64,000 nt of DNA. Source: Branchiostoma floridae. Taxonomy: Eukaryota > Chordata > Leptocardii > Amphioxiformes > Branchiostomatidae. The position numbers and the translations under genes were made by a program. How positions within the stretch are numbered: position 1 is the first letter of the stretch; every line of letters begins with the position of its first letter. This document shows positions 1,192-64,000 of the stretch, one piece after another. The stretch is taken from NCBI RefSeq assembly GCF_000003815.2, contig NC_049981.1:2498498-2562497 (forward strand), in the 5' to 3' direction. The notes under the pieces were generated by a model. The model was not told where the DNA came from and searched no databases. It saw nothing but the letters and a program-made list of their open reading frames with translations.

Positions 1192-1562
1192 GCTGATACT
1201 ATTTCGCTGACTCTGTAAACTGATACTATTTTCTGAAGGCTGATACTTACTATTTTGCTGACTCTGTAAACTGATACTATTTTCTGAAGGCTGATACTTA
1301 CTATTTTGCTGACTCTGTAAACTGATACTATTTTCTTAAGGCTGATACTTACTATTTTGCTGACTCTGTAAACTGATACTATTTTCTGAAGGCTGATACT
1401 CACTATTTTGCTGAATCTGTAAGCTGATACTCACTATTTTGCTGAATCTGTAAGCTGATAGTATTTTCTGAAGGCTGATACTTACTATTTTGCTGACTCT
1501 GTAAACTGATACTATTTTCTGAAGGCTGATACTCACTATTTTGCTGAATCTGTAAGCTGATA
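1192..1562 (-). repeat. Minisatellite of G-alpha-q exon 3 donor junctions
   Basis: About six to seven degenerate 55-bp units. Read on the minus strand, each copies the end of exon 3 (CAGATTCAGCAAAATA) followed by a donor GTAAGTATCAG or GTGAGTATCAG. The true exon end at 1537 is the first unit. Confidence 0.9.
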
Positions 1563-4500: not shown

Positions 4501-4646
4501 CCCCAAATGGCTCCCAAATGGTCAGCGAACCATCACCCTAATCCAATCATTCTTCCAGCTTCCAATATCACGGCTTTTTGTGTTGATTACATCACGCCAA
4601 TCTCAGGCCATCACCTAGGCCTAAATCAAAGGTAAGTAGGCTGTGT

Positions 4647-4690
<44 letters not shown>

Positions 4691-11458: not shown

Positions 11459-13808
11459 GCTGGAGATGTCAGTCTCTCCGCCAGCCAATACTGGGGGCCC
11501 AGCCCTGGCGATCGTGCTTCCCTCCCGAACTAGCGGCTCGGCCGTGCGCCTGAGTGCCCGTGCTGGATCCAGCGGGCTCCTGGCGGTTCGGGCTCGGTGC
11601 GACCCGCCTGATTGTGCCGTGGATCGGCTCCGTGTGGCTCCGAGCGGCGTCTGAGTCTGTCCGAGGTCTGCAACTCGCACTACGGCCTGGGTGGGGACGG
11701 TACCAGCGCGGCGATGCCAACCAGCGGACTCGCCCCCTTTTTCGACTAGATTGAGCTTATTTCTTTTCAAAGCAAAAGTTAATTCCAAAAATACTGCAAT
11801 GAAAAAATATTACTCAATTATATCAAAGTGAAAATATAACTCTACTTATGTGTGTGATGAGTCATTTGTCATTAAAACTCCCTTTTTCTAATTTTATGGT
11901 AAGGGGTGGCTACGCAATGTGGAACAGCAAAGCTAGGTTTGTGTGATATTTGAAGCTAGTTTGTAGTTATTTCTGATACTTCTATAATAGTTGAAGACGT
12001 TTAAATATATCTTAAGAAGGTAAAACTTGAGGTATTCTTGCACTAAAGTAAAATATCATATATTTTCTAATTTATCTAATGATACTTGACGTGTAGAAAT
12101 GTTTATATTTAACGTTTGTGTGATATATGGGTGACCGTGTAACCCCCATACATAGCCACCAAAGCAGCAAGACTAGGATCCCCCATCTTGGCGCCCCACA
12201 TGCCCACATTGTCAATTCGTGATGTTCCCGAAGCAGGAAAAAATCGCTCTCTTCTCGGACAATTCTACCTTCCTTTTCCTGCCAACACGGACTATATTTC
12301 ACCATACTGTTGTTGGGAAAAACAGGCCCATTTGTGGGGGACAACGGCGCCATATTGAGGGTAGGGTGCCGGGCCAACGTTAGGGGTCGTTGTTTCACAG
12401 TCGGCTGAAGCCGGTGGAAAGGAAAGTCATCAGTAGGAAGAGGAAATTGTGGATGGAGTAAGGGAGCATGGGCGCCATTTTGTCCGGAGTAAGACCGTTT
12501 ACAGCGTCTGTGACGTTCGTACGACTGTCTGACGGCCCGACAAGTGGCTCAGCGCCAAATCCTGCGGGACAAACCGGCGCAAAAAGAGCAGGGCACGCCA
12601 CCTGCAGACGAACCAACAAGTGGCATCACAGCGGGGATAAATAACTACACAGGCCGGAATACTCCCATGTGCAACAAGTCATTCCCAGCTGAAATTAAAC
12701 AAACATATCAAAACCGGGGATTCCGCTGCAGTACCGTAGCAAGCCGCTAGGGGACACAAATCCGATCATTTTTCTCATCAAGACCTAACGAAATAAAGTT
12801 TCCAACGTTACCCACATATTTATCCAGGTCATTATCCAGTTCGTCCGTAAACAGAAAACAAAGAGGCTCAAACCCATTTTAAGCTCCTTGCTTTTAAACA
12901 AATGCTACCAAAAACATAACTTCTGCCATTGGAAAGTTAACTACTATATCCACCTTTAAAATGTGTAAATGGATAATGAATAAAGTTATTCTCCAAGCAG
13001 AGGTTGAGTCTCGCCGGTGATATAGTAGTTGTCGGAAAATTTACCGGAGCGCGCTGGAGAATAGAATAAAGCCAGAGGTCCGTGTTTAAAAAAAGCCAAG
13101 ACTCAAGTACTTTAAAGAACCCACCACACTCAGTGAATAGTTATTGGCTAAAGGAAGAAGGGAATAAAAGAAGAAAAAAACGAAGGAAAGAAAGGATGGA
13201 AAGAAAGAAAGGAAGAAAGAGATAGAGAACAAATCACTATGCCTGTAGATACCACCAGTACAGTGTTGGCGCATACGGTCACCACCAGCGTTGGCGAATT
13301 TTCCACAGCAACTTTCAAGAACGCAAACTCCCCACACACGCTCATATCATAACAATGATGGTTGTTCGGTTTGCTTATATTTCCGTTTTTCTCCAGCAAT
13401 GACTTGTGTGGGAAGACAAGAGAACAGCGTCCCTACAGACCGATAATCAAAGTGGGGACATTTACTTTTAAAACCATTTTACGCCCATACACGTTCATCA
13501 ATCTCCAAGCAGATGTTCGGAGGGAAATCGTGACGCACTACGTTCTCGGGCCTGGGTGCCAGACGGAGTAAAGCTAAAATGGGCTAACACCCAAGCTATA
13601 GCGAAGTCACATATCCATGTAGCAATACATGACTAGACCTGGTTACCAGCGAGCGAAAAACATTCCGATTTCCTCTCCGCGTATCTGCTTTAACTTTGAG
13701 ACAGAGTCGTCACCATGACGTCATGGTCTCGTCGCTCCCAAGCGGTACGAAAGCGACCACTTGCGACTTTATTACAAACTGCAGCCGTTCTACAATCCAC
13801 TTCCCAAG
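11459..13808. other. Divergent intergenic region G-alpha-q / KIFBP
   Basis: No coding exon seen. GC-rich sequence at 11470-11720 is probably the 5' untranslated region and promoter of the G-alpha-q gene. 11790-12130 is AT-rich. A fragment near 12705-12750 (ccgctgcagtaccgtagcaagccgctagg) resembles the interior of the TIR element at 16133. Sequence just before 13809 holds the KIFBP start region, with no TATA box identified. Confidence 0.5.
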
Positions 13809-16800
13809 ATGGCGGCCATGTACCTACAGAATCAGGGGTTTGAAGAGTATGCGAGTGCCCGGCGACTGAGCGAGGAGGTAACGGCAGGGCGGGGATGGCA
13901 CGGGACGAGGAGGGGGAAGGGGTCCCCAGTATTGACTTCGTAACGCCATGTTGTAGTTGTTGTTGTCAGCATTTACCCAGTCAGTGACGCCCCCCTCCCC
14001 ACCACATCCAGCCCTGTCATGCAATGGAATGCATGTTTGTATCAAAGTAAAGGGATGACACTGTAGCTCAATCGGTAGCAGCTTAACAGTTGAGCACCTG
14101 GCTGTAATTAGTTCGTAACTGGGAAACACCGCTTCTGATCCGTAATGGGTATCGTGGTTAGAGCTGCATTCGTCTTTCGAAAGACAAATCCGGATGTAAA
14201 ATTCTAAAAATGGGGTTCGTGTTCGAGGAGGTGCCTCAAGCACATTACAACAGCCTCATTACTTAGATGGGTACTTATAGCTACTGGTTGTGCTGCAAGG
14301 TGAATAGGTGCATGTTTTATGTTAAGAACAAAATCTGTTGTAAGGTTTGGCATACTAGCTTAGAAGGCGGTGACACGCCGATGTCCATGACCACTGATGA
14401 CAAGTATTTTCCCGCCCTCCTGTATCCCCTTCAGGAGTCCCGTCAGGACCCGGAGACGGAGCCCTACAAGTCCAAGTACAAGGCACGGGAACTTCTGCTG
14501 CAGCTGGCAGAGGCTCTGCAGGGGTTTCAGGATGAATCACAAGCAGAGGAAAACATCGGTCAGTTTAGCACGGATTCACCATCTGTCCGTCCTTCCATCC
14601 ATTCCACCCATTTACTGCTGTGTTTACTGCTGTGTTGACCCTGCCGTAACGTTGTCCAAACTGTTTGTTTGTTTACTCCTTTGTTTGGTGTTGTTCAGAG
14701 TTGACCCAACAGTTGTCCGAGCTCTTTGTTTGTATACTACTTTTTTGTTCAAAATTGATATTACAGTTGTCCAAGCTGTTTGTTTACTCCTGTTTTTTTG
14801 TTGTTCAGAGTTGGTGCTACAGTTGTCCAAGCTGTTTGTTTACTCATGTTCGTTTTTTGTTGTTCAGAGTTGACCCTACAGTTGTCCAAGCTGTTTGTTT
14901 GTTTACTCCTATTTTTTGTTGTTGTTCAGAGTTGACCCTCCAGTTGGCAGAGCTGTGGTTCCATCTCGGGGTGAACTTCAGCGAGACGGAGGAGGTTCCC
15001 ACAGGTGAGCAGTACTTCTCCAGGTGTGCAGAACTCATGCAGGGGCACAAGATGGACCAGCGCTGCGTCAACACCTGCCTCAACTGTCTTAACCAGGTAA
15101 ACACTTTCACTTTCAGCTGCCTCAACTGTCTTAACCAGGTAAGCACTTTCACTTTCACCTGCCTCAACTGTCTTAACCAGGTAAGCACTTTTACTTTCAC
15201 ATCCTCAAGTTTCTTAACCTGGTAAGTGCTTTCACGGTCACCTGCCTCAGCAGTCCTAACCAGGTAAGCACTTTCACTTTCACCTTCCTCAACTATCTTG
15301 ACGATGTAAACACTCTAAGTTTTATTTACGCACATTCTAGTCTTATGTACCTTAAAGCATTCTCAACTATCAGTCGCTGTTCTTTTTTCCTTTCAGAATT
15401 GACTCATGCGACTTAAGACATGTTTCCTACAGCAAGTTACATGATGGATGTTTTGCAAAATTCCTCACAATTAAAGTCATGTTTTATGAATTAAAACCAA
15501 CAAATGATTGTGAAAATATTGCTGTGTGATTTTTGCTTGTTTGTTTATAGTTTGTGTTGTATCAATTTAGTCATGTTTGTTTACTGTTGGTATTGTTGTT
15601 TACTCCAGCTTGGCATCCTGTGGGTCTCGCGATCAGAACCGGAGAAAGCCCTGAAGATTTTACAGGTGGGACAAAACTTATCGTCAACATCAGTCGTGAA
15701 CTTTCGTTGATCATATCGCCATCCTTACTTGATCAATCGCTTTGAGTCGCAATTCTTGTACAACCAACTCCCATAATCAGCCCAAATGAACAGATATAAC
15801 AAACAAACAAACAGACATAAGAAACAAATGGACACAACAAACAAACAGACAACAAACAAACAGACATAATGAACGTCCAAACGTAACAGACGCATATACA
15901 CAAAAAACAAACAGACATAACAAATAAAATGTACACAACAAACGAACAGACAACAAACAAACAAACAGACATAATGAACGTCCAAACGTAACAGACACAC
16001 ATACACAAAAAACAAACAGACGTAACAAATAAAATGTACACAACAAACGAACAGACAACAAACAAACAGACATAATGATCGTCCAAACGTAACAGACAAG
16101 CATACACAACAAACTAGAGTTCGGCGACCTCATACCTCCATGAAAATTTAAAGCTTTTGTAAATTTCATGCAATTGACTAACACATTAACATAATTTATG
16201 CATGGCGTTGTTCAGCATTGACTAACGTACACATGTCACAATTCTAAAATTCCCATTATTAATCATAAAGCAGTTTTGCAATTTTTACATAAATTATGCA
16301 AATAAGTTCCTCATTACCATATTTGGTATCTGCTTATATTCCACCTATCATAATTAACATCTGTTACATTTATTTAAGTCCAGTTATTGAAAACAACGGA
16401 ATTATACAATTTCCTCATTAATTATGCAAATCAACTCCTCATTTGCATAACATGTATATCATTATGAACATATTTGCCTAAGGTACACGCATACCCAATA
16501 TGATGCCAATCCATCAATCCTTTCTGCATTTATCCTCTTTGGAATGTCTTGACAAAAATGCCCCTGCAGTTCCCAAATTAAATGTTAGGGGGCTGAAATT
16601 TGCTCCACTTTGTCATGACACTAAAAGCTATCTACCACCCAAATGTCAAGACCATATCACATCTGGGACAAGAGATACATAGAAAAAATTGCTATGATAG
16701 AATATTCTCATTAATTATGCAAATGTGCTCCTATTATGCATAATTGGTATTTCACTTTGTACAACATTGTCTAAGGTACTAGTACCTACATACCAAAAAT

Positions 16801-24135: not shown

Positions 24136-24139
24136 CAAG

Positions 24140-25885: not shown

Positions 25886-37223
<11,338 letters not shown>

Positions 37224-46300: not shown

Positions 46301-49300
46301 GTACGACACCTAGGTAACAAAGGGAACAGCAACAAGAAGATGTGACAACAACAGCATGAGTCATGGACTGTGCCCTGAGGGACTTCTATGCAGAACCCGC
46401 TCACGATCACCACATTTGTGTACGTACGGCATCTAAACAACAAAACGTACTAGGTAAGCAACCACACTTGCTGTTAACACTTTGAAACAGTCTATACCTA
46501 AACAGCAGCAACATTCGTGGCGACTCAACCTCTACTTGGATAATAGGCAGAATGAGTTGTTTGTTGGCCTGCAACTGCAGCTGTTGATATCTGCGGCATG
46601 CATTTGAAGCTGGCCGGGGGAAAGCTTTCGTCAAAGTTAGCTTGTAAGTAGCAGCAACGGTTAACTAATTCAGAGTCAGACTGGACAAAAACATGGACTA
46701 AGGTCATGTTATTTGCCTTAAACCCTGAATTTGTGAGTTGTACCCCATTTTACCGCAACTTTTCCTGTCATGTCCTACCTGGTTGTCTTTCCACACCCTT
46801 TCTGGCGGTCTCAGTCTCCGGGACGTGCCCGGACCCGTCTGTAGTTTGAAGATTGGAGCCTGCTGACGCCTGTCATCAGCAATGGGCGGGTCGTTGATCT
46901 CACAGGTTTCTGTAGTTTGTGTATTGACAGTATGTAACAGCTCATGTCACGGTGGCCAGGTAGTGAGTCAAGGATCAGAACAGAGGCATGATGTTTGCGG
47001 AGATAATAACTTTATTTCAGTGCTCAAGTGGACACGTCTTCCCCTGTCGCCGTCTCTAGATCGAATCCCCTCCCTCTTACGTGTCACTTCCCCAACCCCT
47101 CTACATTTGGTCCCCAGTAACACTCCCCACTCCTGGGGTTATCACGCTGTCACCTAGTGACACTCGCACAACTTACACTGTAATCATCTATGCGGAGCAA
47201 TTGTAAAACACACATTGATGGAAATGGACGATAGGTCAGAGAATTTTTGAGAATTTCAGTTTGTTGAGAATAAGCTTAGTCATATCAGCAATATAGTGAA
47301 GAACAACTGACCTATACAATCTAAAGTGTCTGGGTTCGGCTTCAGGCTGCCGTCCGTGCATGTCAGAGTGATTTCTCTGGAAAAGTCGTCCCACAGCCTC
47401 CTGTTGCCACGGCAAGTGACAGTGACGTCACTGTTGTGTGGAATCTGGCCTACCGTCGATGTGTCGGCATTAGGGATGTCCGGAACGTCACATGGACGCG
47501 GGGCAGCTGGGAAATACAGTCAATCAATCAATCAAAGAACCTGAGGCATCAGAATGGGAAACAACTACAAGGAATGTTTGGGACGTTACAGGGACGTTTC
47601 CTATTGCCTTGGGACCGAACAGAAAACAGTTCCCACCTTCACACTGGACCACAGTCTTCTGCGCGCCTTTGTTGCATCTCCAGGTATCTGTTCGTTTTCC
47701 GACACCCCTGGAAAGTAACCACACACGATGCAAAACGTTTACGAACCAGATAGAAACGTTTCTTGCAGAGAGTTGCGGCTTAATTTCACCCAACTCCTCG
47801 ATCATCTGTCCACCACTTACATACGACACTCAAACAAACATACGACTAGCTGGTATTAGTGATCAACTATTGTAGCTTTAAAATTCATAGCAACATTTAA
47901 ATAGACAAGTGAAAGTGATTGTTGAATGTCACCTGAGAATGCTGTTCTGCGGACAAGTGAAAGTGACTGTATCTCCCTGTAGCATTTCTGTGGTTTCCTT
48001 GGCGGCAGTGAAAGTTGGCGGCTGGTACTCCACCAGCAGAGCACCCAGACTCGGCGTGAAACCAATGTTCATGCCAGGAAACTGCAGGAACTTGTTCCGT
48101 TTGGAATCGGACACCAGCTTACAGGTCCCTACAAAGAAAACGTGAGAAATCTTACACCGCACCAGTGTCCAGGTCCCTACATTTGGAAAATCTTACACCG
48201 GCGTGTGAATTGTGGTACAGGGGGTATCCACGTAAGCATTGTGGTACAGGCGGTCCTCACGTGAGTATTGTCAGTGGCAAATGTGGTAATCACGTGAGCA
48301 TTGCGGTACAGGAAGCAGTGTACATTGTGGCACCTACGGTACTCACGTGAGTATTTTAGCATAAGCAGCACTCACGTGTGCATTGTGGCACAAGTCGTAC
48401 TCACTTGAGCAGATACTCGCGTGAGCATTGTACGTGTTACAAGCTTGGTAGTCACGTTCATCAATTTGTGGCACATTCCCTACTCACGTGAGCATTGTGG
48501 CACAGTCGTCACTTGACGTCACAGGTCATATTGTGGCACAAGTGGTACTCACTTGAGCAAGGCACAGGCGATAGTCACGTGAGCATTACCATTGTACATT
48601 GTCGGTTACATGCTAGGTAGTCACCTGTGCATATATTGCACAGACGAAACTCATGATCACGTGCACGTGCATTGTGGCACATTCAGTACTCACTTGAGCA
48701 TTGTGGCACGGGCGGTTCGAATCTGCCGGTGTCCTGACATGTCATGCTCAGAGTGTTCTGTACAGGGTACCGGGCCTTCACCCCCAGCCCGCGGTTACAG
48801 ACCGCCTCCAGCACCGTCCCGACAGGCTGCACCTCCCCGGCCCCCACCTCCTGGTCCGTCTCCCCGTGCACCAGCCTCCCGTTCAGGCTCTGCAGCTGTC
48901 CAGCAGCCACCGCACACCCTGGAAATGGACAAATGGCAAAGTTGGTGAACTGGTGGTTTGGGGTGATACTAAATCTTTTCAGGGCTTTTAGCAAACAGAG
49001 TCTAAACTGGGATGTTTTGGTGTTCAATTTGGCTTTTCCATTTTTTTGCGTATCAATTGAGAAATGTGTTACTATGTTGCTTATACACATATGCATATTG
49101 TACCTTCTTCTGTCTCACGGGCTAAAACGTAGCGCAGATGTAAATTACAATGGGCAAAGCACATATGCAGCACATTGCAGCGACCTATTAATTTAATTTA
49201 ATTTGTCCGGCTAGCCTTTAAAGCTTTAGACCTAAGACCACATTTCATTCATATCTGAACTTTACACATGAATAACTCTAAACACTCCTCCTAAAATCTT

Positions 49301-52300
49301 AACCAGTTGCTTCAGTAACTATCTGTTAGCATAACTTTAGACTTGTCCAAAAACTGACAGACGGTGATAGATTATCTCGGCGCATGAGGTCTCTGTTGAC
49401 TTTACCTCCTTCATCGGCGTCCTCTTCTTCAACTGAAAAGATAGACAACAAAAAGGTTGTCATGATGTGAGTAAAACATAAACACCAAGGAAGGTATTTT
49501 GATAGAGCGGATTAATCCTGGACGTCGTTCCGTGTTAGTGTCCTGGAAGGGACCTTATAACTATCGAGACATAAGTTAAATCGGAAGAAAGTCTCCTGGA
49601 AGGGGCCGGCCTTCACCCCGAAAACGCCATGCGTCTCGAGGCGGAGCAAACTCCTTTCTACGGCAAAATCGCCTTGAGCAACCTTACGAGGAATTCGCAG
49701 GTAAGGCAGGTTGTTTTGCAACAATGTCAGTTCGCAACAAGGCAAGTCTTTTCGCAACAAGGTACAAGTCGTTTCGCAACATTTGAATGTTATTAATCTT
49801 GATGGCCTAATAGTATTAGAAATCGTATTCCTAACATAATTGTACTCCTTCCGCGTAAAAATCTTACCGACAGACAACCCTAGCTGGCGGCAGAGGAACA
49901 TGGGGCCTGACAGCCCGATGATTTTCATACGCCGGGCGGTGCAGTTTCGTACGCGGCGTGCACAGATAGGAGTATAATTATGTTAGGAATACGATTTCTA
50001 ATACTATTAGGCTATCAAGATGTCAAACAACCTGTAACCAATTCGCACACTTACCTAGTTGGTACCCCTGCCCGACAAACGGTGCCACCAACACCCGTCC
50101 CACACCAACCACGAGGCTCCAGCAGGCGCGGATTCCCCCCTCCACCCACCCTGACAGCATCCTCTTGTTCCGACCTCAAAGGAAAATAAAGCATGGTTTA
50201 GTATCATAGGTGGCTTAATTGTCATATTGGTTTATTATCTATGAAAATTGTTCACCATGTTGGAATGAAGCACAAGAGTACAGATGAGGATGGGCCATAC
50301 GCACCATGTGTCGTGCCACCGCCACTGGAGCTGTGTGGAAACAAAGAACATTTGTCTTTGATAGCTATAGATGTATCTACATTTCTCTTTCTCTCTCTCT
50401 TGTTCTTCTCTCTCTATATATGTATATGAGTGAGAGAGAGACGTCCTCACTTACTACTACAACTATTGTGCAAGGCTCTGATATCACTAATACACTATTG
50501 TGAAATGACTCTTTTATCACCGCTGTGTAATGCTCCTTTATCACTACTATGCAATGCTTTGTTATCAAACCTGTCCCTCTGGAAAAGCTGCACCAGCCGC
50601 GTCAGGGAGTCACGGTGTTCGCGGAACTGCAACGTTCCAGGAAGGCGGTACAGGATGTAGGGGGCGTAAGGAACCTGTACGGTATGCACAGCAAAGAGAA
50701 ATGTTCATCTTTGACCAGTCAGCATTATGATATTAGCAAATAGCAACTGATTTTAGCATAACTGACAAATCCCAACTGTTATCATCACTACGTCTAGACT
50801 CTACCTTGAATCCTAGGCTGTCTGCATCTACCCTGGCCACCAGGACTTTCCCGTAGAACGGCGTGTACAGTGCCAGGCGGTCAAACCGCTCCAGGGACTC
50901 CTGACGGCAACTGCGGCAGCCTGGAGGGGTGATGTATATCTGGTATTACTTATTTTTGCAATAAATCTGAAGCCAAAGAAGTTAAAGACAGGAATTACAC
51001 AGGCAATCTTACGAAGGTCTTATCACCACAGAGCAACACTCAGATGTGTATTATAAGTATCGGTACTGCGTGGAAACCGTTAGGAACAGGTGTTTCAACT
51101 TTCATTCTGTTCACAAGTACCTCACCTTGTTAACAAGTGCGCGCATGCCTCGCCTTGTTCACAAGTGTCTCGCATTGTTAGTAAGTGCCTCACATCGTTC
51201 ACAAGTGCCTCACCTTGTTGAAAATGCCTTGTTAGTAAGGAATTCGAGCTCACATTGTTCATAAGTGCCTGACCGTTCACATGTGTCTCACCTTAAGCTT
51301 GTTAAAGAGCTTCAGGTGCTTCACCATGTTAACGAATATTTCACCTTGTCACAAGTTTCTTGCCTTTTCCCCAAGCACTCACCTTGTTCACACGTGTCCT
51401 TATTGCAGCCGCGACAGAACAGCAGGATGATACCATACTCCGGTTCCCGGTTCACCAGCGCTGTGTAGGCCTCCATGCTCAGCAGACGGGTCGGTGCCTT
51501 CGGATCAACTGTACAGCAAAACACGACTGACTTTTATTATTCTTGGCTCAAATGCAAGACATGGCTACATATTTAGCCGTCTACAGGATCCAAATTTGTC
51601 TTGTTTGATCCTACTTCTATACTACAATGCTAAACTTTATTCAAACGCAAACTTAGGGTATACACAGATCAAATTTTCAACGACCACTGTAACATTCTCA
51701 GGATCAATACTACGCTCTTAATCCTGAAGAAGACGACAGTGGTCGTTGACGATTGAGTGTTGACACACATGAGTTTCCATGATAATCCTACTTCTGCAAC
51801 AGCATTGCACACTTCTGCAACGGCCTTAGCTTGTGTACATATAATTCAATAATATAATCTTAACAGCAAACTGACCATCTTTCAGTAGGGCATCCTCGCA
51901 TCCAGGCACGGTCTGTTTCTGCTTGTCGGCGAAATCACATATGTCTCCGAAGATCTCGTGGCTAAGTCTCGCGGCACAAGGACCACGTGGCACCGTGGCC
52001 AGAGGGCCCCAGTCACTGGAACATTCGCCGACATGCACCCCAAAGACAACGACTGAGCGGCTCACGCCAGAAACCTGAAGATGAGGTGGAAAATTTCTTT
52101 CTTACAGCTTTTTATTTCAGTGAAAGAAGTCGACACGCTGCATCTATACACAAAGTAAAGCACTCATCGCCAACTTTTCAACCAGTCCTCTATATAGTCC
52201 TTCTCAATTAAGTTGATCTCACGCGGGGCCGACTTACTAAGCTAGTAACTTGGTCAACTGGTCAAATGTGCCAGGCAGTTGGTATCGGCCCCCTTCTATC

Positions 52301-55300
52301 TCTGTTGAGTGATGGTCAGTAGTTGTTGTTGTTGTTGTCCCTGCTTAACGTCTATTTCTTCGCTAGACGTGAGCTCCAGGTACTATTTCCATCTAGGTGC
52401 TTCTCATGTGGTTGTTGCTCATTGGTGCTTGAACTCTGGTGCTTTGCACATTCGTGTATAGTAAGTTGGTGACCTATTAGTCCTCCCCGGCAAATCTCCC
52501 TGTGTCTTCTATATACTTTGAGAATGCCTTGTACATCATTTTGTTTGTTTCTTCTCCCAGATCTTCTCTCATCCCTGCTAGCGTCACTATGTCCAGCCTT
52601 CTCTCTTTCTCCCGTGTACTGAGTTCTTGGTATATGTTGTCCACCTCGTTGTACATTCTGTGTCTGCTGCTCTCATACCTTGGGCAGTAGTACAGGAAGT
52701 GCTCTGTGCTTTCTCTCTCCCCACAGGCTTCACAGTTGGGTGACTCTGTGTCGTCTATCCAGTTTCTGTAGGCGTTGAGTGAGGTGTGCCCACTCACCAG
52801 CTGGTTTATTGCAATTTGGGTTGACCTCAGTCCCAGTACTTTGCATTTTTTCTTCATTTGTACATTTATCTTCTGCATGTGTTTGCTGGTAGTATGTAGC
52901 TCGCTTCTTCTTTTCCATCTTTCTTCTGCTTGTTTTTCTATGTGTTTGAGGGCTTGTTGTCTTGTCCACACTGTATTCATGTTGCTGTTTCTGGCCTCTT
53001 CAGCTGCAAGTTTGGCTTGTTCGTCGGCTAGCTCATTGCCTGCTACTCCCATGTGCCCTGGGCACCATTCAATTTGAATGTTGACTCTCTTCTGCTTCAT
53101 TTCGTGCAGTTTCTGTCTTATGTTGTTAACTAGATCGTTATAGGCATCTACTTGGTGAGTGGTGATGACATTTTCTATTGCCGCCTTGCAGTCACATAAG
53201 ATGAGCACTCTCTCTTCACTTCTTTCCCTCTTGCTCAGTGTGCTGAGTGCCAGGTGAAGTCCCTGCAATTCCCCCTCATAGTTGTTTGACTTTGCTGCAA
53301 CGGGCTTCTTGACAGTGTATGGTTCTGTTCTGCCCCAATGTTCGTAGATCACTGCCGAGCATCCTGTCGGACCTGGGTTCCCTAGAGACGATCCGTCCGT
53401 AAAGACGACGGTTGTCTTTGTCTGCTTGATACTTTGCAGTAACTGTGCTATTTCTTCTTTCGCTTGCTCTTTGCTGCATTGGTTGTTCATTTTGGGTGTG
53501 AATGACCCTGTTATTCTTCCAATGGAGAAGGGTGGTAACCTAGCATCAAAGTAGCATTCTTTATCGACTGTCTCAGTTTCCAGCTCACCTTTCAGCTCTT
53601 TGAATCTTGTAGCAAGTAGATGTACAGGTGTGCCTCTTCTTTCCTCTGTCAACTCATGTGTAATGGTATCGTAGATGGGGTTGCCCGTGTGTTTTGTGCT
53701 GAGCCTTAAATATGCCTGTGCATATATTGCCGACATGTGAGATGGATGTCTACAGGAATAGTTCCAGTTAGTGCTTCTAGCGCTTCGGTGCTAGTTCTTT
53801 GTTTGCAACCTGTTGCTGCCAGTAGGGCCCTTCTCTGGATGGGTGCATAGGCATCTTCTTGTTTCTTCCCCGCCATGATAGTGCATTCCGCTCCATATTC
53901 TAATATCGGTCTGATCAGTGCTCGATACAACAACAGGTGCGCTTCCTGGTTTGGGTTCTTCTTCGCATTAGTCACTCTGCTGACTACTTTGAGTGCCTTG
54001 TAGGCCTTGTTTTTTGTGTTGTTGATGTGACTGGTATACGTGAGTCTATCATCTAGTGTGATGCCTACTAGCTTTATTTCCGGGAGAACTTCGATTCTTT
54101 TCCCATTGACTCTGATATGGTTGACCCGTGTGTCTGCTTGGTGGTTTGCTTGGAATATGAGTGCCTTAGTCTTTGATTCTTCCACCTTCATATTCCATCT
54201 CGGGCACCACTGGCTTATGAGTTTTGCAATTTGAAGCTCCACATGTGTGATCAGATCTCTTAAGTTTGGACCTGTCTTCCAAGCTGCCCCATCGTCTGCG
54301 TATTGAAAGTTGCTGAGGTCAATGTCACTGTACGCATCAGATGTATATATGTTGCATAACGTAGTAGACAATACTGCACCTTGTGGCACTCCCACCTTGC
54401 TTAGGGTTGGTTTTGTTGTTACTGAGTTTACTCTGAAGGAGATCTCTCTGTCTCTCAGAAAGCCACTCAGATAGCATAGCATTCTCCCCTTAATCCCATG
54501 TTTCATCAGCTTGTAGAGGAGGCCTTCTTGCCAGATTCTATCAAAGCAGCCTTCATAGTCTGCGAACACTGCAACTGTGGATTCCCTTCTCTTCCAACCT
54601 TCGTTGATGTGTTGTATCATCCTTAGCACCCCATGTGTGGCTGTTCTGTTCTTCCTATAGGCCTCTTGGTAGGGAGATATGATGCTGTTCACTTCTGTCC
54701 ACCATGTGAGACGGTTGTTTATTATTCTTTCCAGTATCTTCCCTATAACGCTTGACAGAGTGATGGGTCTGTAACTACGTACTTGGTTGTAGTCTTCTTT
54801 CCCTGGTTTCTTTATCAGTATCTTGCAGTCCTGTTTCATTTGCTTGGGAACATGACCTGTTATCCACACTCTGTTCAACATATGGTGTAGTGCTATCAAC
54901 ATCCCTTCTCCACCTTTCTTGAGCATGATTGGTAGAATTCCCTCTAGCGGACTGGGTGAAGATCGTGAGTCCATCTTATGCACCGCTGCTTCAACTTCTT
55001 GTAGTGTTATGTCCATGTTGAGGCTATCTTCATGGGAGGTTTCTTCCAGTGTGTCTGCTTCCTGGAGTCTGTGCATCTCATGTGTTACCACTGCTTTTAC
55101 TGCGTGTGTGATGCTCTGTTTCCAGTGTTCTAATTCATCTGGCATATCCACTCCTCCTGGTGCATATTCTTTGCTCACCACCTGTGCTATTTGTTCATCT
55201 GTTGTGGCTCTCTCCCCATTCTGCTGCTTTAGAGGTTGAATCGTGGGCTTGGCATTTCGTCCTAGCTGGTTCTTAATTGCTCTCCAAAATTTCTGAGGGT

Positions 55301-58300
55301 TGTTTGGGTTCATAGCTTTGAGCTGTTCATTCCAATATGTGTTTCGTGCCTCTTCCTCCATTTTGTTGAGAGTTTGTTTCTCATTCAGGTACTTTCTCAG
55401 GTTGTTGAGGTCTCTCCTCCTTCTGAACTTCCTTAGTGCTCTTTTGGTGTTTTTCATCTGCTCTTCCAGGGTTTTATTCCAGTGCCCTTTACTGTGTTGT
55501 GTTACTGTCTTCTTTTGGATGAGCTCTTCGGCACATTCCATTACCCTTTCTTTAAAGGTGTCATAGATTTTTTCTGTGTTGTCGTCGTAGTTGTCACGTG
55601 AACTGTTGGTTTCTTCGGCCAACTTCTGGAAAGCTGTGTCTGTCTTTCTTTCCCATTCTTGCCAATCCACCTTACGCAGGTTCCATCTTTGCTGCTTCTC
55701 TAGCTTCTCTTTGGTTCCCACTATCATGGTGATGAGGTTATGATCTGTTTGTAGCGGCACCTCTGGCTCCACTCTCCAGTTGCTTATGTGGTTTTGTGTA
55801 TCTCTGTTTACTATGGTCAAATCGATGATGCTCTCCTCTCTTGTGGGAGTGTTGTTGTTGATAATTCTAGTCCTACTTGCTTCCATCATAGTGCTTAGCA
55901 TTTGGCCCAGTTTGTTATCTTTCCTATCTCCCCAGGATGTATGTCTGGCGTTCAAGTCGCCACATACCACAAGATGCTTCCTTTTTGTGCTTTGATTGTT
56001 GATTATGTTCATTACTTCCTGCATGGCTAGTTTGTCGTCTGGAGGCACGTATGCAGATATCAAGAGGAAGTTCAAGGTATTTGTGTATATGTTGAGCGCT
56101 ACAACATCTGCATGTGTAGTCTGATCTAGTGGTTCTTCCATTACTTTAATGCTTTCTCTAGATGCTATTGCGACTCCACCTCCTCTTCTTCCAGTTCTAT
56201 TTCTTTGTACCCATTTCCAGGATTTTAAGCATACTGGTTGCTCACTTTTGTTCCAAAGTTCTGATAGACAGATTGCGTCGATGTTCTTTTGTTCGCACAT
56301 TCTCTCGACCAGAGCCGACGAGGTATTGATTGATCTTATATTAATTTGTGCGATCTTCATTTTCCTGGTATGTATGTTTCTTGTTGGAAGATGCTGCAAT
56401 GCTTTTGTGGTCACTGCTGTAGGTCTTTTGTAGATGTTAACTATTGTATCTTCGTAGACTATTGCTTTTGCCGTTTCTCGTGTGGGTGATCTTATTTTCT
56501 TCTTATGTGAGAGTCTTATTCCTCTTTTCCGTATGTGAGTTATCAATTATGTATAGTCTCTTTGTTGTTGCAATGTGCTTTTGTTTCCTTGTTTTTATGG
56601 TCTTTGCAAATGAGTATGTCTATTCGATATTTCTTCCCCTTTTGCAGGTTTAGACTCTGTTTTCAAGCTTTTGCTTCCAGGAGTGGAAAGCTTTACATCT
56701 GTTGTCGTTAGCACTATGTTTCCCTCCACAGTTAATGCACCTTGGTTTGCAGCTTAGGGTGTGGTTTCTTGCTTCTCCACACCTGGCGCAGGTGGCGTCT
56801 TGCTCACACAATTTGGCGATATGTCCGAAACGATGGCAATTGAAACACTTGATCGGTGTCTGAGTCTTTGTTCTGTATGGTTCAATGTTAACCGTAGCAC
56901 CGTCTATTATTACGTTCTGTGTGAAGATGCTTGACAGCTGTCCTTCTGTTGTCTCAATCAGGACAACCTTTAGCGGCTTCCCGGTATCTTGGTATCGGTA
57001 TCTGTGTGCTTTAACCTTTACTTCTATCAGCTCTAGTATGCTCTGTTCTATTTCTTCTTCCTTTATGTTGGTTGGTACGTTCTTTAATATAGCCCTTCTT
57101 CCATGTGTTTTCTGTGTTCTGTGGCTTTTGAGCTGTCCTTTATTACTTCCAAAGGCTCCCTCTGTCCAGGGTTTCATCAACTCTTCTGCTGTTTTCTTGT
57201 CTTTGCTGTGTACAGCTATTCCTCCTCTTGGTAGGGAGTATGCAAGTTGGATGTTGTGTGTGATCCCTGGTTTGTACCTGGAAATCTCTGCTAGAATCTT
57301 CTGGCTATTTTTGTACGTCTTGGGGTTTGGTATGCCGTCTATAATGACGACTTCTTCTTTTGCACCTATGTTGTTGTGTGTTCTATCCGTGTTGTGGTTG
57401 TTGCACCTTTGGCTTGTGGGTTTGTGTCCCTTTTCTTCCCTTTGTGTTGTTGTCTTTTGCGGCTTATTTTCCTCGTTGCAACACTCTATTCTTTCTATGT
57501 TGTGTTTTCTTAGTTTCTTGATGATGCAGTATGCACATGTGTATTCCTCTTCGGTTTTCACAAAGAAGTCAATTGCCTGTTTGGTTAACTTTGCACATGT
57601 ACTGTGCCACCATGAATTGCAGATGTCACAGCAGATCCAATTCCCTCCCTCTATATGTTCATCCCCACATATGCACCGATCTTCTTCGTTACTTAGCTGA
57701 GTCTGTTGGTTGTTTCTTTCTTGGTCATGTGTGGTGATTGTTACAGGTTGTGTACTCACGGTTTCTGAGCTTTCCGTACCCCTTGTATGTTGTGCTTTCC
57801 CTTTCTTTCCTTCTTCCGTTTCTGTTTGCCTGTATCCTTCCTCTTGCTTTTTTGACTGCTGCTGAGTTCGTCTTTTGGTTGTTGTTGTTTGTTTCTTGGG
57901 CCCTTGTAATCTCTTCCGCTTCTGGTTTGTGTCTTGTTCATCTGCTTCTTGTTCCGGACTTGTTTTTTCTACCTTTTTTTCCTGGTTGGTCCGCTGTCTT
58001 GTCTTGTCTGGGTTCACCTCTTGTGCTTGTATTTTTGCTTGTGCTCTCGTACTAGGCCCTATTGAACATGGCCTCTTTCACTCCTCTTAAGATACAATAA
58101 TGTCCAGTGCCAAGGATTCTGACTTCTGTCTAACTCACATAGAGTCCAGGGAACTCGACCTATACATGCTGTACGACTTGTGAGGTTTGAGACCTAGGCC
58201 ATATGTGCAAGAGATGCTACCATCTCACGGGGGATATACAATCATTAGTGTTGCATGGATAGACGTGGCCCAAGCCCCGTCCAAAAGAGCCAGATTTTCA

Positions 58301-61049
58301 GCGAAAAATACAGCCGATGCTCGGGCGATGTTGAAATTCGGCGAGCTCTGACCGAACTACAAATTAGGCCGGCGTTAATATTTGTATGAATTGTAAAACG
58401 GCTTAATCATTATTTGTAAACAGAAGTCGCCGGAGCCCCGTCCAGTTTGTGACGGGGCAGATTATCACTGAAAAATACTGTAGACGCGCCTGTACGCTGG
58501 GGCGATTTGAAGTCGGCGAGCCGCTAGCCAAACTTCAAATTCGGTCGGCTTTAATTGTGACGGAGGTTCTTAGACAGGTCACACACGACACAATATTATG
58601 ATTACTTGTTTTTTTCCATGACGATTGCGTATTTCTCATGCAGTGATGGTTTGTGAGAGAACAGACGTCTAACAATCCAGTTTGTTACTCGGGCATTGTG
58701 ACGTTGTAAAGGTTCCAGAACGTTCGAACTTCATTGAAATCGTTCACGAATTCACTGAAGCACTACGCGAAGTGCAGGTACTGAAGCGTATTAAAGTTCT
58801 TGAAGATTGACTTTAGAAAGCTGTAAAGCTCAATATATATAATGTCTGCCGCATCGACGTCAACTGTCTCTAGATGCCAGAGACGAAACAAAAAGGTGGT
58901 CTCTGCAAGAGCACTGCTCTATACGGAGCTGGGGTACATCGACTCCCTGACTGAAAAGAGCACAGCCGCACTCCACCAGGTTTGCCTCAGTGATGGCATC
59001 ACGATTGATGACATTTTAGCGGGGAACTACCGAGGAAGAGGAGTATCAAGAGTAAGACATATCTTTGTGTCAAGTTGAACTGTTCAACTTTGTATGGGTT
59101 TCAAGTCGATTTTCAACATACAGTCAGTCATTTGTCACTATTGAAGCATAACTGGTCGCTGATGTCACACTACTATTTTCATCGTTGTTCACATGAGATA
59201 TCAAATAGATTTCAGTACCCGAATACAATACATAGCTTGCTGCATGCTACATGTTTGACAAAGACCAACGCAACGAGTAGCTATGAATCAAAGAATGTAA
59301 TTAGTTGCCCTCGTCCACATCTTATCTAGGCAGCTGTAGAGGCAGCACGATCAGAACTAGACTCAGACAGGCACATTAAAGGGGACCCAAATTTGCGTAA
59401 TTGGAGTACAGATGCAAGACATGCAGTCTTCCTCCACAAGAATGGCGCACAAGCTGTCCACCAGGATGGAGACAAGGTAGTAGACGATACAGAAGACGAG
59501 GTGCGGCAGGGTTGTGAGGATGCAGAGCATGAGCTCGAGGAATGTTCGGCAGACAGAACAGCACGGGGCGGTGGTGATGTGGCAGATATAACACAAAGAG
59601 AGAGGGAGGATAGCACTGCGGCAAGAGGAGAGAGAGAAGATGAGAACATGGAGTGTGCAGCAGGTGGAGAGAGAAAAGAGAACAGGGAGTGTGCAGCAGG
59701 TGGAGAGAGAGAAGACAACACGGAGTGTGCAGCAGGTGGAGAGAGAGAAGACAACACGGAGTGTGCAGCAGGTGGAGAGAGAGAAGACAACATGAAGTGT
59801 GCAGCAGGTGGAGAGAGAGAAGACAACACGGAGTGTGCAGCAGGTGGAGAGAGAGAAGACAACACGGAGTGTGCAGCAGGTGGAGAGAGAGAAGACAACA
59901 CGGAGTGTGCAGCAGGTGGAGAGAGAGAAGACAACACGGAGTGTGCAGCAAGTGGAGAGAGAGAAGAGGAGAACAGGGAGTGTGCAACAGGTGGAGAGAG
60001 AGAAGACAACACGGAGTGTGCAGCAGGTGGAGAGAGAGAAGAGGAGAACAGGGAGTGTGTAGAAGGCAGAGCGAAAGAAGAGCGGCCCGCACCGGTACCT
60101 AGAGCTCGCAGAGGAAGACTTATGGACTTTAGGAGATGTATAACTGGCATAGGACGTCGCATGAGAAAACTTCTTCAATGTTGCAATTGTCTAAACCCTG
60201 ACACAGAGGACTGAAGTTGGTACATCTGTTCTGTTACGTATTCCGTTACATCTGATCCGTTATACCTTTATATGAAAAAAAAATGTATGAAAAAATTTTT
60301 ATGAAAAAAAAGAACGAACGTTAAAAACAGCAAAAACAACAAAAAGGAAATGGATGTCCATTTCACTTTGACTAAACAGGATCGTAATGTAATTAGTTGT
60401 AGAAATTGAAAAACACTGTGCGGCTGTGTCGGAGTGTACATTTGCATGTATTTCTCTCGCTGGTGGGCTGCTAGGGGCGCGATTTAATCAGATTCGAGAG
60501 AAGACGCCTATATTAAAGTGGTACACGTGCGTAGTATTATTCATTAGTTTATGTGTGCAAAAGATAAGTCGTGTATATACTACACAAGATGGTGTCACTC
60601 GGTGAATGCACTGTGCTTCTGATGTACAAAATGTATGTGCGCGAGTGCTTTGATGACGTAAACGTTAGTTCAAGCATACATGTAGATGGTCATCGATATG
60701 TGTGGAATACAATCCACTTTCTTGTTAATTAAAAGACTCTCCGTGAAAGTTCATGGATCGAAGCATGTTTTCCGTTTTATAAATTTTTGATTCATAACTT
60801 ATTGACCGGGCGCTCTCGGTCTAACTCATCGCCATGCAGGGATTTGGCATTGAATGGTTGGGAATAATGATAACGTTATTACAAAGCAATTTTTTTTTAC
60901 ATCTGAAGGGTATACGTCACGTTCATTCAGGTTTTTAGACTTACAAGATTTAATCAAGGTCAATCTTATATCATTGTTTGTACTTGTTTGTGCCTGTCAC
61001 AAGTTGTGTTTCAGAAGACGAGGTGTTTTGTGTGTCAGGTATGTACGTG

Positions 61050-61093
<44 letters not shown>

Positions 61094-64000
61094 TGTGTGT
61101 GTGAGTGTGTGTCGTGTGTGTGTGTCGTGTGTTTGTTGACGCCGTAAAAACGTTTCAATGACGTTTCCACCCTGCGGCCGAAAAGCGTAGGACCTATCAG
61201 ACTGCAATGTTTCATTTAGTCAACGACTCAATATTTCAAAAGCTATCAGCAAAGTTGTCAGACAAAAACGTCTATAAGTAGGTATGGCGTAAGCGATGAT
61301 ATATACCTTGAGAACTTAAGTATAGCTCTCCAGGGTAATAGTGAACTTGGAAATGTTTTAAGATGTCTGGACTCTTCAATGCAATCTTTTTCGCCAATCA
61401 ATCTATCAATATACCGCATGTGTGTCCTTGTATCTAAAATAGTACAGAACTCATCCAACTAACAGTCTAAAACTTACCGTAAGGTGTCGTATTTGCGCAG
61501 TCTATGCAACGTACGTACTGTACGACTGTTTACGATGATGAAGTCCAAGACAAGGAATAGGTGTTTTGACCACAAGGTAGGAGGTGCTAGTACGTTCCGT
61601 GACCTAACTGATGAAATTGATAAGCTCTGTATGTGGGTATACACAGCCTTATGATAAGCCTAGCTCGTCGACGTCCTTTAAGAAAAACGGCAATATTTTT
61701 ATGATCCTGAAGTTCTCTAGTAGTTCTCTCGTAGATCCTGCATTTTCAACTACATGTACCATCGATTTCCTTTTTTCATCCGGGCAGAATTGGTATTACT
61801 GACTTTATCTGTTCACCATTGTATAATGTATATTGTAATGTTACCAGGGCTAGCCCTTGATAATAGCCTCCGGCTAGTTGGGTAACCCTGGCTTTATTCC
61901 TTATTATCATATAGCCAGGCGCCGCGGACCAATCAGAAGGCCCCGTTCCACGTNNNNNNNNNNNNNNNNNNNNNNNNNNNNNNNNNNNNNNNNNNNNNNN
62001 NNNNNNNNNNNNNNNNNNNNNNNNNNNNNNNNNNNNNNNNNNNNNNNNNNNNNAAATCGGGAGAGGCGGGACGCAACTTGAAGTTCAACCTTTGGTATGA
62101 AATAACGTTGCTTTTGTTTGAACCTGCTGAAATAGCAATAATGTCGTAAAGATATTGTGTCCGCCACAGTAAAAGACAAAACATTTTATTGAAAATTTCT
62201 CATGACACGAAAAATGTCTGTTTGCTCTAGTTCCGTGATACATGATAAGATTAGGGATGAGCCCCCTACTGAATTCCTTTTGCGTGACAGTTTGCCTATT
62301 TGTTTTTTTTTTTATCATATCAAGTTGTTTGTTTGCTGGTTGGTTGGTTGGTTGGTTGGTTGGTTACGTAAAGCCCCCGTCGCTAATCAAGAATTGAGCT
62401 CGGCCGACGTGTTGGCGAGCTCAAAATGGGCATGAACAATCGACGTCCTGGCGATTACGCGGGCTTCGGACGATTTTTTGCAGCTCCGGGCCTGGCTCGG
62501 CCGACGTTTTCGGTTCATTGGGAGCTTCGCTTAAATGTAGCAAGGCCTCGGCGACGATTTTTGAGCTTTTTATGAGATTTTAGATTGGGGTATCGCAAAA
62601 TTCCTGCTAATGTTATACGGTGCCAGTCCACCCACACATGCTCTACATATTTGCCACAAGACGTTAAAGATGATCAAGATATATTATTTTTCACTGACCG
62701 GGTTAGTCGACTCTCACTTCGTCCATATCCGTGCTCTGAGAACCTGGTCCGAGAACCTAGTCGGGGGCCGACACGGACTGCCGGACCTGGCCCATTCCTG
62801 ACATCACACCTTCCACTCAGGTCAATTAAGTGACGTAGATGTCAGGGCAAATCAATGAGAAGGACCAGAGGACTGGTCTAGTGGACTGATGAGCGCTTAA
62901 CGTTGTGTACGGATAAAGCGTGTGAATTGCTTACAACTTTGTCAAGAACTTTCATACGAGTACTATAAGTTACTGCCCTACTGGTATTCTTTATATTTTC
63001 TTAGTTGTATCTTGTATTTCTTTTTTACCAAACCAATTTTCTTTAAATGATCAGCGAATTATATGATGCTGTATCAAATACAGTGTAAACTCTACCAATG
63101 CACACAAGCAAACAAACAAAACAATAAACGAAAATGAACAAATAAAACAGTAGACACAAACAAATGCAAATTCATGCACACCTGGTAGGCGGGGCTTCCT
63201 GGGATCTTGAGGTGCTGATGGGAACCTGGGCACGATACAGCTGCTAGCTCGTTCCCAGCGTACCCCATGTTGTTTTCATCGACACGCCCTGTTTTGCTGC
63301 ATTTTATATTCCCGGTGGCATATTTAACGGAAACCTAGAGTCAGACAGAAGGTGAGACATAAGAAATATTACCGACAAGTTTCCCGTGGACAAAAAAAAT
63401 CTACTTTGATGTTACAGAAACTGGAGTTACATTAATGTTCTTCACTGATCGGAGATACCAGATACAGGGCCAATGGACCGATCCTGAAACCTCGAGCTCG
63501 CCCCCTGTTCGATCATGCTCTATTACGAACACCTCCGTCAAAAGCAGCGCTTGTCGGACAGAACTTTGTGCCGCCGCTATTTTGATAATAATGACACGTG
63601 ACTTCGGTTTAGCTTTTTTGGCCTTGAAATCCTCTCAGAACAGGCCGAGAAAAATGCGCTGCGCATGTCCTCTTTGTTGGATGTTAACGTTTCCCGCCGC
63701 GGACAATTAAAATGACTTACCTGTGGAGAAACTGGACTTTCATTAAAATTACCTTCAGAGATTCTTCAGAGAGTCACATGGTCCACTTTCATTGATGTTC
63801 TCTAGATCTACGTAGTTACTTTGCGTGCTCAATGGAGAAACAGACTAGGCCTGAGACTTACATTGACGTTCTCCACTGAGAAGGGGCTCCAGGTTAGCGC
63901 TGTTCCCGGGAACTGGAGGCCAGACGCCAGGCTCAGCACCGCAAAGCTGTTCACTGGACTCTTGTTCCGCAGCCAGCCGGGGAAGATGTGGACTCTCCGT
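43305..64000 (-). CDS. Large protein with thioredoxin-like segment and five CCP/sushi-like modules (5' end outside window)
   Basis: I do not recognise a named orthologue. Minus-strand exons: 63862-64000 (partial), 63182-63334, 51876-52074, 51383-51508, 50805-50920, 50571-50674, 50305-50330, 50055-50174, 49406-49432, 48694-48918, 47933-48128, 47637-47707, 47312-47506, 46779-46909, 46195-46309, 45585-45836, 44835-44980, 44400-44558, 43305-43409. All are GT-AG and every phase joins, giving about 868 visible codons. Order of parts: Cys-containing N-terminal region; thioredoxin-like segment with CRSC; hydrophobic stretch (CWSLVVGVGRVLVAPF); short acidic linker; five four-Cys CCP-like modules; a C-terminal region ending GDALELV. 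The Cys-rich make-up suggests an extracellular or secretory-pathway protein. The signal peptide, if any, lies off the right edge. The intron at 52075-63181 contains a LINE and a nested gene. The exon chain is well supported; domain names are less certain. Confidence 0.8.
43960..44340 (+). mobile_element. tRNA-related SINE-like duplication with intact B box
   Basis: GGTTCGAATCCCG, a perfect Pol III B box, occurs twice (about 43991 and 44271). Each is followed by the same tail of about 60 bases (gtcgggatgttgtttctttc, tgttctactcgcccctctgg). No full tRNA cloverleaf was found. It lies in an intron of the CCP gene. Confidence 0.6.
46255..46445 (-). repeat. Diverged copy of a CCP-gene acceptor/exon start
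   Basis: 46370-46440 resembles 46245-46315, which is the acceptor and first 60 or so bases of exon 46195-46309 (minus strand). Shared pieces include catg-ac-tg, ttc-atgcag-aacc and cactcac/gctcac, then cgtacg(g)ca. Confidence 0.6.
48190..48715 (-). repeat. Minisatellite of CCP-gene donor junctions (exon 48694-48918)
   Basis: On the minus strand the exon end GTGCCACAATGCTCAA|GTGAGTAC is followed by more than ten degenerate copies of gtgccacaatgctcacgtga, many keeping a GTGAGTAC-like donor. Confidence 0.9.
50571..51508 (-). other. Thioredoxin-like segment of the CCP gene
   Basis: Exons 51383-51508, 50805-50920 and 50571-50674. The pattern follows a thioredoxin fold: a beta strand (YGIILLFC), a Cys-rich turn containing CRSC (a CxxC), helix (ESLERFDRLALYTPFYG), strand with Asp (KVLVARVDADS), then VPYAPYILYRLPGT in the usual cis-Pro/strand region and a closing helix (DSLTRLVQLFQRD). 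The CxxC lies just after the exon junction. Extra cysteines (CRGC and DTCEQ) precede it, unlike standard thioredoxins. The fold is proposed from pattern and not tested by profile search. Confidence 0.55.
51100..51405 (-). repeat. Minisatellite of CCP-gene donor junctions (exon 51383-51508)
   Basis: Degenerate 22-bp units of cttgtgaacaaggtgaggca on the minus strand match the exon end ACGTGTGAACAAG|GTGAGTGC. About ten copies follow the real donor. Confidence 0.85.
52477..56546 (-). pseudogene. LINE ORF2: endonuclease, reverse transcriptase, RNase H; frameshifted
   Basis: The first in-frame ATG is at 56360 (MKIAQINIRSINTSS), at the start of an apurinic-type endonuclease domain with SAYVPPDD, VVCGDLNARHTSWGD and a TDHNL motif. 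The reverse transcriptase follows, with YRPITLSSVIGKILERI, GVPQGAVLSTTLCNIY and the catalytic FQYADD box. The frame is lost between about 53706 and 53736. The remainder continues in another frame to 52477 with an RNase H domain (VVFTDGSSLGNPGPTG, ELQGLHLALS, DCKAAIE, GHMGVAGNELADE) and a C-terminal Cys/His cluster (CEACGERESTEHFLYYCPRY). One indel accounts for the break. Confidence 0.9.
56650..58017 (-). CDS. LINE ORF1: PHD finger plus three CCHC zinc knuckles
   Basis: 455-codon open frame beginning at a GTG (58017); the frame stays open further upstream without an ATG, so the true start is unclear. A basic Lys/Gln-rich N-terminal region is followed by a PHD finger (DRCICGDEHIEGGNWICCD, then CNSWWHSTCAKL and YTCAYC). 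A central region, probably an RNA-recognition-type fold, has VVIIDGIPNPKTY and RRAILKNVPTNI. Near the C-terminus are knuckles CFNCHRFGHIAKLC, CARCGEARNHTLSC and CINCGGKHSANDNRC. The likely role is binding element RNA as a ribonucleoprotein; the PHD finger could target chromatin (inference). Confidence 0.85.
   Translation of the reverse strand: MNPDKTRQRTNQEKKVEKTSPEQEADEQDTNQKRKRLQGPKKQTTTTKRRTQQQSKKQEEGYRQTETEEGKKGKAQHTRGTESSETVSTQPVTITTHDQERNNQQTQLSNEEDRCICGDEHIEGGNWICCDICNSWWHSTCAKLTKQAIDFFVKTEEEYTCAYCIIKKLRKHNIERIECCNEENKPQKTTTQREEKGHKPTSQRCNNHNTDRTHNNIGAKEEVVIIDGIPNPKTYKNSQKILAEISRYKPGITHNIQLAYSLPRGGIAVHSKDKKTAEELMKPWTEGAFGSNKGQLKSHRTQKTHGRRAILKNVPTNIKEEEIEQSILELIEVKVKAHRYRYQDTGKPLKVVLIETTEGQLSSIFTQNVIIDGATVNIEPYRTKTQTPIKCFNCHRFGHIAKLCEQDATCARCGEARNHTLSCKPRCINCGGKHSANDNRCKAFHSWKQKLENRV
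58250..58580. repeat. Diverged tandem duplication upstream of the nested gene
   Basis: Two blocks of about 130 bp share gccccgtcca, cagatt-tcagcgaaaaatac, gggcgat-ttgaa-tcggcgagc and ggccggcgttaat. A third GC-rich relative may lie at 62390-62570. Their nature is unknown. Confidence 0.55.
58842..60214 (+). CDS. Two-exon nested gene with 12-residue tandem repeats, function unknown
   Basis: Exons 58842-59051 and 59330-60214 join in phase 0 and give 364 codons. The N-terminal part (TELGYIDSLTEKSTAALHQ, SDGITIDDILAGNYRGRG) looks like a folded globular segment. The middle holds about a dozen copies of a 36-bp unit encoding GGEREDNTECAA with variants, so it is highly acidic with regularly spaced Cys. 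The C-terminus is basic and ends with paired cysteines (RRMRKLLQCCNCLNPDTED). A TATA-like ATATATAA lies just before the ATG. The gene sits on the opposite strand inside the 11-kb intron of the CCP gene. I know no family for it. It could be a lineage-specific gene or part of an unrecognised mobile element. Confidence 0.6.
59640..60065. repeat. 36-bp coding minisatellite in the nested gene
   Basis: About twelve tandem copies of a unit ggtggagagagagaagac plus aacacggagtgtgcagca. The unit length is a multiple of three, so copy-number change keeps frame. Several copies are identical, which indicates recent homogenisation. All three reverse frames are also open, a by-product of the repeat. Confidence 0.9.
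60215..61953. other. Intronic sequence of the CCP gene between nested gene and gap
   Basis: No exon seen. An A-rich stretch follows the nested gene at 60270-60350. A (GT)n microsatellite lies at about 61055-61135. A short imperfect palindrome, agggctagccctt then gggtaaccctgg, lies at 61850-61893. Confidence 0.5.
61954..62053. other. Assembly gap (100 N)
   Basis: Exactly 100 N inside the large intron of the CCP gene; no exon is visibly interrupted. Confidence 0.98.
62054..63181. other. Intronic sequence of the CCP gene right of the gap
   Basis: No exon seen. A (GGTT)n tract lies at about 62338-62365. A GC-rich block at 62390-62570 repeats ggccgacg and ctcgg-gacg words. Confidence 0.5.
63400..63875 (-). 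repeat. Dispersed copies of a CCP-gene donor junction (exon 63862-64000)
   Basis: The exon end GTGGAGAACGTCAAT|GTAAGT recurs downstream as gagaacatcaatgaaagtgg (about 63785), a truncated ttaatgaaagtccagtttct (about 63735), and tgaagaacattaatgtaact (about 63430). The copies are degenerate. Confidence 0.6.

Follow-up and report, generated by a model that had tools for sequence, protein, structure and literature searches.

Genes and splice junctions in the window

The window, a stretch of 64,000 nucleotides of the Branchiostoma floridae genome, contained five annotated genes: G-alpha-q, KIFBP, an HDGF/PSIP1-like gene (here, HDGF-related), G4 (38.7 to 41.8 kb), and a gene termed the "CCP gene." Exons were placed by tblastn searches using the human proteins GNAQ, KIFBP, and PSIP1 and then by open frames and GT/AG dinucleotides, which gave 94 annotated splice junctions (48 donors and 46 acceptors), with one ambiguous donor set manually. 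The internal exon edges of KIFBP and G-alpha-q were reproduced by a purpose-written, homology-based spliced aligner, except for the K1 and K8 donors; the end of G-alpha-q exon 3 was 2 nt short in one run and exact in another. Homology backing for G-alpha-q extended through human residue 158, with exon 4 outside, and the adjoining stretch beside the window contained 2618 N. The exons of the CCP gene rest on open frames, and its sushi match scored 20.4 bits, just below the Pfam cutoff of 20.7. No Pfam match above the cutoff was found in the parts of G4 that were searched, and one part had no NCBIfam match.

Several other features were recorded. Two runs of 100 N each (31503 to 31602 and 61954 to 62053) are probably assembly gaps, and the former interrupts the HDGF-related gene between H7 and H8. 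Upstream of the window, a minus-strand stretch resembling a diverged G-alpha-q exon 5 (L034:1276-1380), with 69% identity to human over 35 residues, lies beside a stretch that is 100% identical to human G-alpha-q over 43 residues (L034:769-897); the diverged copy is a possible alternative exon. A non-long terminal repeat (non-LTR) retrotransposon occupied positions 52477 to 58077 on the minus strand, with an open reading frame (ORF) for endonuclease and reverse transcriptase (Pfam PF14529, PF03372, and PF00078), a 475-amino-acid (aa) ORF upstream, and a 437-aa ORF downstream that appeared RNase H-like by eye. On the plus strand, a 36-bp tandem repeat (59630 to 60042) within an open frame (59330 to 60211) encoded a repeated 12-residue acidic stretch, and the frame had no Pfam match up to an E value of 1.

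Junctions copied into adjoining introns

Tandem Repeats Finder (TRF) returned 95 rows for the window. Exon-terminal 25-mers had a copy in their own intron at a score of at least 15 at 11 of the 94 junctions. Junction 40-mers were held to a rule requiring a score of at least 18, spanning of the junction, and a score above every random placement for the same junction; 13 of 94 passed (7/48 donors and 6/46 acceptors), and a looser rule (P < 0.005 plus spanning) admitted 15 of the 94. The 13 cases were distributed among KIFBP (six), HDGF-related (four), the CCP gene (two), and G-alpha-q (one), with none in G4. Three weaker acceptor cases were noted beyond these, C8 being likely and K16 and C12 degenerate. 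The first-pass annotation had described about fourteen arrays, at donors as well as acceptors in four genes, whose units include the adjoining splice site with part of its exon, and these counts bear out that description. The cases span positions 1197 to about 51405, the part with annotated junctions, and none was found from there up to 63875. Unit lengths in the junction-containing TRF arrays of the window ranged from 26 to 94 bp.

The G-alpha-q case was an array at the exon 3 donor (1197 to 1564, minus strand; exon 1537 to 1691) with units of 51 and 31 bp and six copied donors. The surrounding stretch (1192 to 1600) had only one genomic match in a search that skipped simple repeats and very common words (513,431,437 bases in 431 contigs).

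KIFBP, on the plus strand, carried arrays at both ends of exon K2. The acceptor array (14666 to 14946; exon start, 14930) had a 56-bp unit and four scored copies, three with AG, and the donor array (15072 to 15314; exon end, 15096) had a 42-bp unit and five copied GT sites. A 26-bp unit at the K4 donor (17281 to 17384; exon end, 17301) gave two copied donors, and a 40-bp unit at the K7 acceptor (18606 to 19046; exon start, 19021) gave nine scored copies, all nine with AG. At the K11 donor (21516 to 22030; exon end, 21540), copies were distant, at +272 (GT lost), +370, and +449. Between this donor and its copies, starting 9 nt past the donor, lay a 15-bp minisatellite (21550 to 21789), similar to the intronic portion of the K11 unit and nested in the larger junction-copying repeat. 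The K15 acceptor array (22694 to 22939; exon start, 22928) had a 79-bp unit and two copied acceptors. The array at the acceptor of K16, the last exon (23418 to 23669; exon start, 23667), was degenerate, with a unit of about 71 bp seen by eye and a nonsignificant 40-mer (P = 0.18).

The HDGF-related cases were on the minus strand. The H14 acceptor array (27180 to 27437; exon start, 27234) had a 94-bp unit, about 55 bases of which were exonic, and two near-identical copies. The H13 donor (27570 to 27760; exon end, 27730) had a single copy 144 nt into the intron. At the H12 acceptor (28538 to 28764; exon start, 28576), an 85-bp unit had two copies inside the intron; a further copy at -631, past the preceding exon, was counted as well but is probably spurious. 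The H8 acceptor array (31287 to 31456; exon start, 31329) had a 73-bp unit with one scored copy and a partial one. An array at 29822 to 29891 was rejected as a case, being a coding repeat with a two-base overhang across the H9 acceptor.

The CCP-gene cases, also on the minus strand, included the C7 donor (48209 to 48720; exon end, 48694), with scattered units of 26 to 29 bp and nine scored copies, eight with GT, and the C1 donor (51120 to 51405; exon end, 51383), with units of about 20 to 28 bp and four scored copies, three with GT. The C8 acceptor (48110 to 48200; exon start, 48128) had one copy 48 nt upstream that scored 16, above random controls and one base short of the spanning rule. The C12 acceptor (46290 to 46450; exon start, 46309) had one degenerate upstream copy, seen by eye (P = 0.053).

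Other arrays near exons were purely intronic (20952 to 21228, 27838 to 28041, and 34085 to 34345). The last of these, in an HDGF-related intron, had a 48-bp unit with 96% matching, and the unit seems by eye to hold inverted halves. A 1.6-kb array (32205 to 33797), also in an HDGF-related intron and away from annotated junctions, had a 50-bp unit with higher-order periods of 100 and 150 bp.

Position and quality of the copied splice sites

The first-pass annotation held that the true junction is always the exon-side unit of its array. For KIFBP and G-alpha-q, the predicted exon edge is the exon-side unit by protein homology, in agreement with the spliced aligner, and the homology was good for KIFBP. 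The same placement at H13 and H14 rests on weak homology (tblastn E values of 0.02 and 0.01), and that at H8, H12, C1, and C7 is based on the open frame.

Some copies were identical to the junction unit and others diverged from it by up to 28%, and the total of copied sites ranged from 50 to 52 by search rule. GT or AG was kept in 46 of 50 copies, compared to 77% of other neighboring dinucleotides in the same copies. Many intact copied sites were strong: 27 of 47 equaled or exceeded the true site in score, and 22 of 47 were at or above the median true-site score. Use of a copied site would bring a stop or frameshift in 45 of 50 cases; the frame was kept without a stop in five, one of which had lost its AG. 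The copies had been cast as possible decoys that must be silenced, which sits poorly with the intact dinucleotides, and no sign of mutational silencing was found among them. The signature of intron gain, a direct repeat shared by the two ends of an intron (donor and acceptor), was absent in 139 introns (best score, 12; null 99% score, 12; null maximum, 22).

Recurrence in independent genes and relation to array load

An independent set of nine genes (CCT1 to CCT8 and HSPD1; 105 exons) was assembled from a genome search with PF00118 (60 exon matches), with repeats ignored in the choice. Of 192 junctions, 188 were tested, and 4 were lost to short introns or N. Junction copies at a score of at least 18 were found at 5 of 188 junctions in four of the nine genes. 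These were the CCT6 exon 4 acceptor (68-bp unit, six copies), the CCT2 exon 4 donor (67-bp unit, about 14 copies), the CCT6 exon 9 donor, the CCT7 exon 7 acceptor (112-bp unit with few exonic bases), and, weakly, the CCT5 exon 3 acceptor (score, 18). The lowest possible P value was reached at eight junctions, with the score of 18 passed by five of these; the 25-mer rule was passed by 3 of the 188 junctions. Such arrays thus recur elsewhere in the genome, in genes picked irrespective of repeats, at a rate significantly lower than that in the window (Fisher test, P = 0.0006).

Tandem arrays made up 16.7% of bases in the window, compared to 4.0% in a 206-kb sample of other, arbitrarily chosen stretches and 4.2% at the chaperonin loci, and there were 7.4 arrays per 10 kb in the window versus 3.25 in the 206 kb. 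Within the window, G-alpha-q, KIFBP, and HDGF-related had 31 to 36% of intron bases in arrays and contained all 10 junction-containing arrays of a hand-made list. In the five array-free chaperonin genes, no junction scored 18 or more; the best was the CCT1 exon 9 acceptor (score, 17), near the line. The frequency of junction copying rises with local tandem-array load, and the window is rich in junction copies because it is rich in tandem arrays.

Distribution of copying relative to junctions

Of 25-mers located in exons at least 20 nt from the edge, 1 to 4% had an intron-side copy no more than 800 nt away; this share was 11.7% for those at the junction and 7 to 19% over the next 400 nt of intron. 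By place, copy shares in introns were 11.9% up to 100 nt from a junction, 18.2% at 100 to 400 nt, and 36.9% deeper, compared to 3.8% in exons and 3.7% outside genes. In the chaperonin genes, the share was 1.6% at the junction and 1.6 to 3.7% in the adjoining intron. Neither the window nor the chaperonin profile had a peak of copying at the junction, and copying faded within about 30 nt of exon. The junction therefore appears as the place at which duplication general to introns reaches the exon.

Random placement of arrays gave a divided answer to the claim that they touch splice junctions more often than expected. With free placement across the window and chaperonin genes, 14 junction-containing arrays were observed versus 14.9 expected. 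When exon overlap was constrained to at most one unit, 14 were observed versus 7.1 expected (P = 0.0055); allowing 15 nt of slack changed these numbers to 18 and 9.4, respectively (P = 0.001). This fuller test used 38 of 47 merged TRF arrays with periods of at least 10 (7 lay outside gene spans, and 2 inside exon H9 were dropped); the 11 junction-containing window arrays included the coding repeat at 29822 to 29891. Constrained placement also gave an excess for a hand-made array list (13 versus 6.2; P = 0.0045) and for window arrays of at least 100 bp (10 versus 3.5); the hand-made lists (38, 36, and 36 arrays) omitted at least one genic array (18360 to 18431). In the chaperonin set alone, 3 were observed versus 1.5 expected (P = 0.17), and the twofold excess came mostly from the window that had suggested the hypothesis.

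Origin of the arrays

The arrays are best read as mirage minisatellites, the published name for boundary-spanning repeats of this kind, produced by ordinary tandem duplication that spills over exon edges and is tolerated by splicing (probability of about 0.7). Small tandem duplications would arise freely in the introns of this genome, and some first duplications would span an exon-intron junction by chance. Those would survive because the outermost, exon-side site is still used and the protein is unchanged; duplications wholly within an exon would change the protein and be eliminated. Use of the exon-side site is the expected outcome of selection that preserves the protein. The units would later multiply on the intron side by slippage or unequal exchange. 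The exon-side site is probably chosen because sites are paired across a short exon (exon definition), so that the nearest pair wins even where copied sites are of equal strength. We infer this mutational route and pairing rule together with the neutrality of the copies.

The first-pass annotation had proposed a process that initiates duplication at splice junctions and confines it to the intron side. Active seeding or holding of this kind, for example through an undying exon-side template or through co-transcriptional structures, would explain the constrained excess, which persists with slack. Donors and acceptors are affected alike, so the pyrimidine tract is not by itself responsible. Against these points, the copy profile lacks a junction peak, free placement gave no excess, the chaperonin set was not significant by itself, and the idea was derived from the same window; junction seeding is not required by the data, and we consider it rather unlikely. 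Less likely again is use of the copied sites, in regulated alternative splicing or as a reservoir for new introns and exons. The retention of GT/AG and the strength of nearly half of the intact sites fit such use, as does the intron-gain model published for globins (PMC3087553), but kept dinucleotides may only reflect young copies, nearly all copied sites would disrupt the reading frame, and donor-acceptor similarity beyond the null was found in none of the 139 introns. An assembly artifact, or chance likeness between low-complexity introns and exon ends, is very improbable. Repeats are prone to misassembly, and the copy number in PGBD5 differs between two lancelet assemblies; however, the divergence among the copies described here is unlike that of collapsed or duplicated reads, their scores exceed random controls, and the same structure has been published independently for several genes, with the PGBD5 repeats upheld by resequencing (PMC3087553 and PMC3902484).

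Spillover of ordinary duplication thus remains the preferred reading, with the twofold constrained excess as the main result against it in pure form. Junctions, or arrays weakly anchored at them, may be favored. The excess may arise because a conserved exon-side unit keeps its array alive. A tentative and somewhat doubtful extension is that, genome-wide, splice-site-anchored arrays are kept about twice as often as intronic ones, the exon-side unit being held by selection and reseeding the array. Were that true, intact strong copies beside one used site would amount to a natural test, on the scale of the genome, of exon definition under competition between sites.

Comparison with known systems

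Boundary-spanning repeats were named mirages in amphioxus Adh3 and in the globin genes BflGb6 and BflGb9 (PMC3087553), and similar repeats were described in PGBD5, where those of Adh and troponin C are cited (PMC3902484). The first-pass annotation had pointed to amphioxus Adh, correctly, and the structure described in these reports is that of the present arrays. Since the phenomenon has already been published, the cases in the window are new examples of it. Published units range from about 10 to 72 bp in Adh3 to 150 to 160 bp in a globin gene, and splicing was described as seemingly regular, on the basis of Adh3 data and globin reverse transcription-PCR, alongside the model of intron gain for globins (PMC3087553). 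Length differences between haplotypes, and for some cases somatic instability, have also been described (PMC3087553 and PMC3902484). No genome-wide survey of mirages was found among the papers covered by a literature search. The present analysis adds a controlled count, a second gene set chosen blind to repeats, the association with array load, and the finding that copying does not peak at junctions.

Should the exon-side site be used despite equally strong intronic copies, the lancelet genome offers ready-made experiments in splice site choice, and also in the frequency with which new introns could be produced by tandem duplication.

Like the amphioxus mirages described in those reports, the arrays are tandem copies of a boundary and part of its exon, occur at 5' and 3' sites, and often keep AG or GT; unlike those mirages, which were reported gene by gene, many occur in neighboring genes of one window. 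Ordinary intronic minisatellites are likewise local tandem arrays and are frequent in the same introns, but the mirage unit differs in including a functional splice site and the exon end. In accounts of intron gain by tandem duplication, in potato RdRp (PMC4974935) and in human genes within segmental duplications (PMC2812944), duplication likewise copies splice-signal sequence; in those cases, a site that was copied or cryptic comes to serve as a functional intron boundary, whereas here the outer site apparently stays in use.
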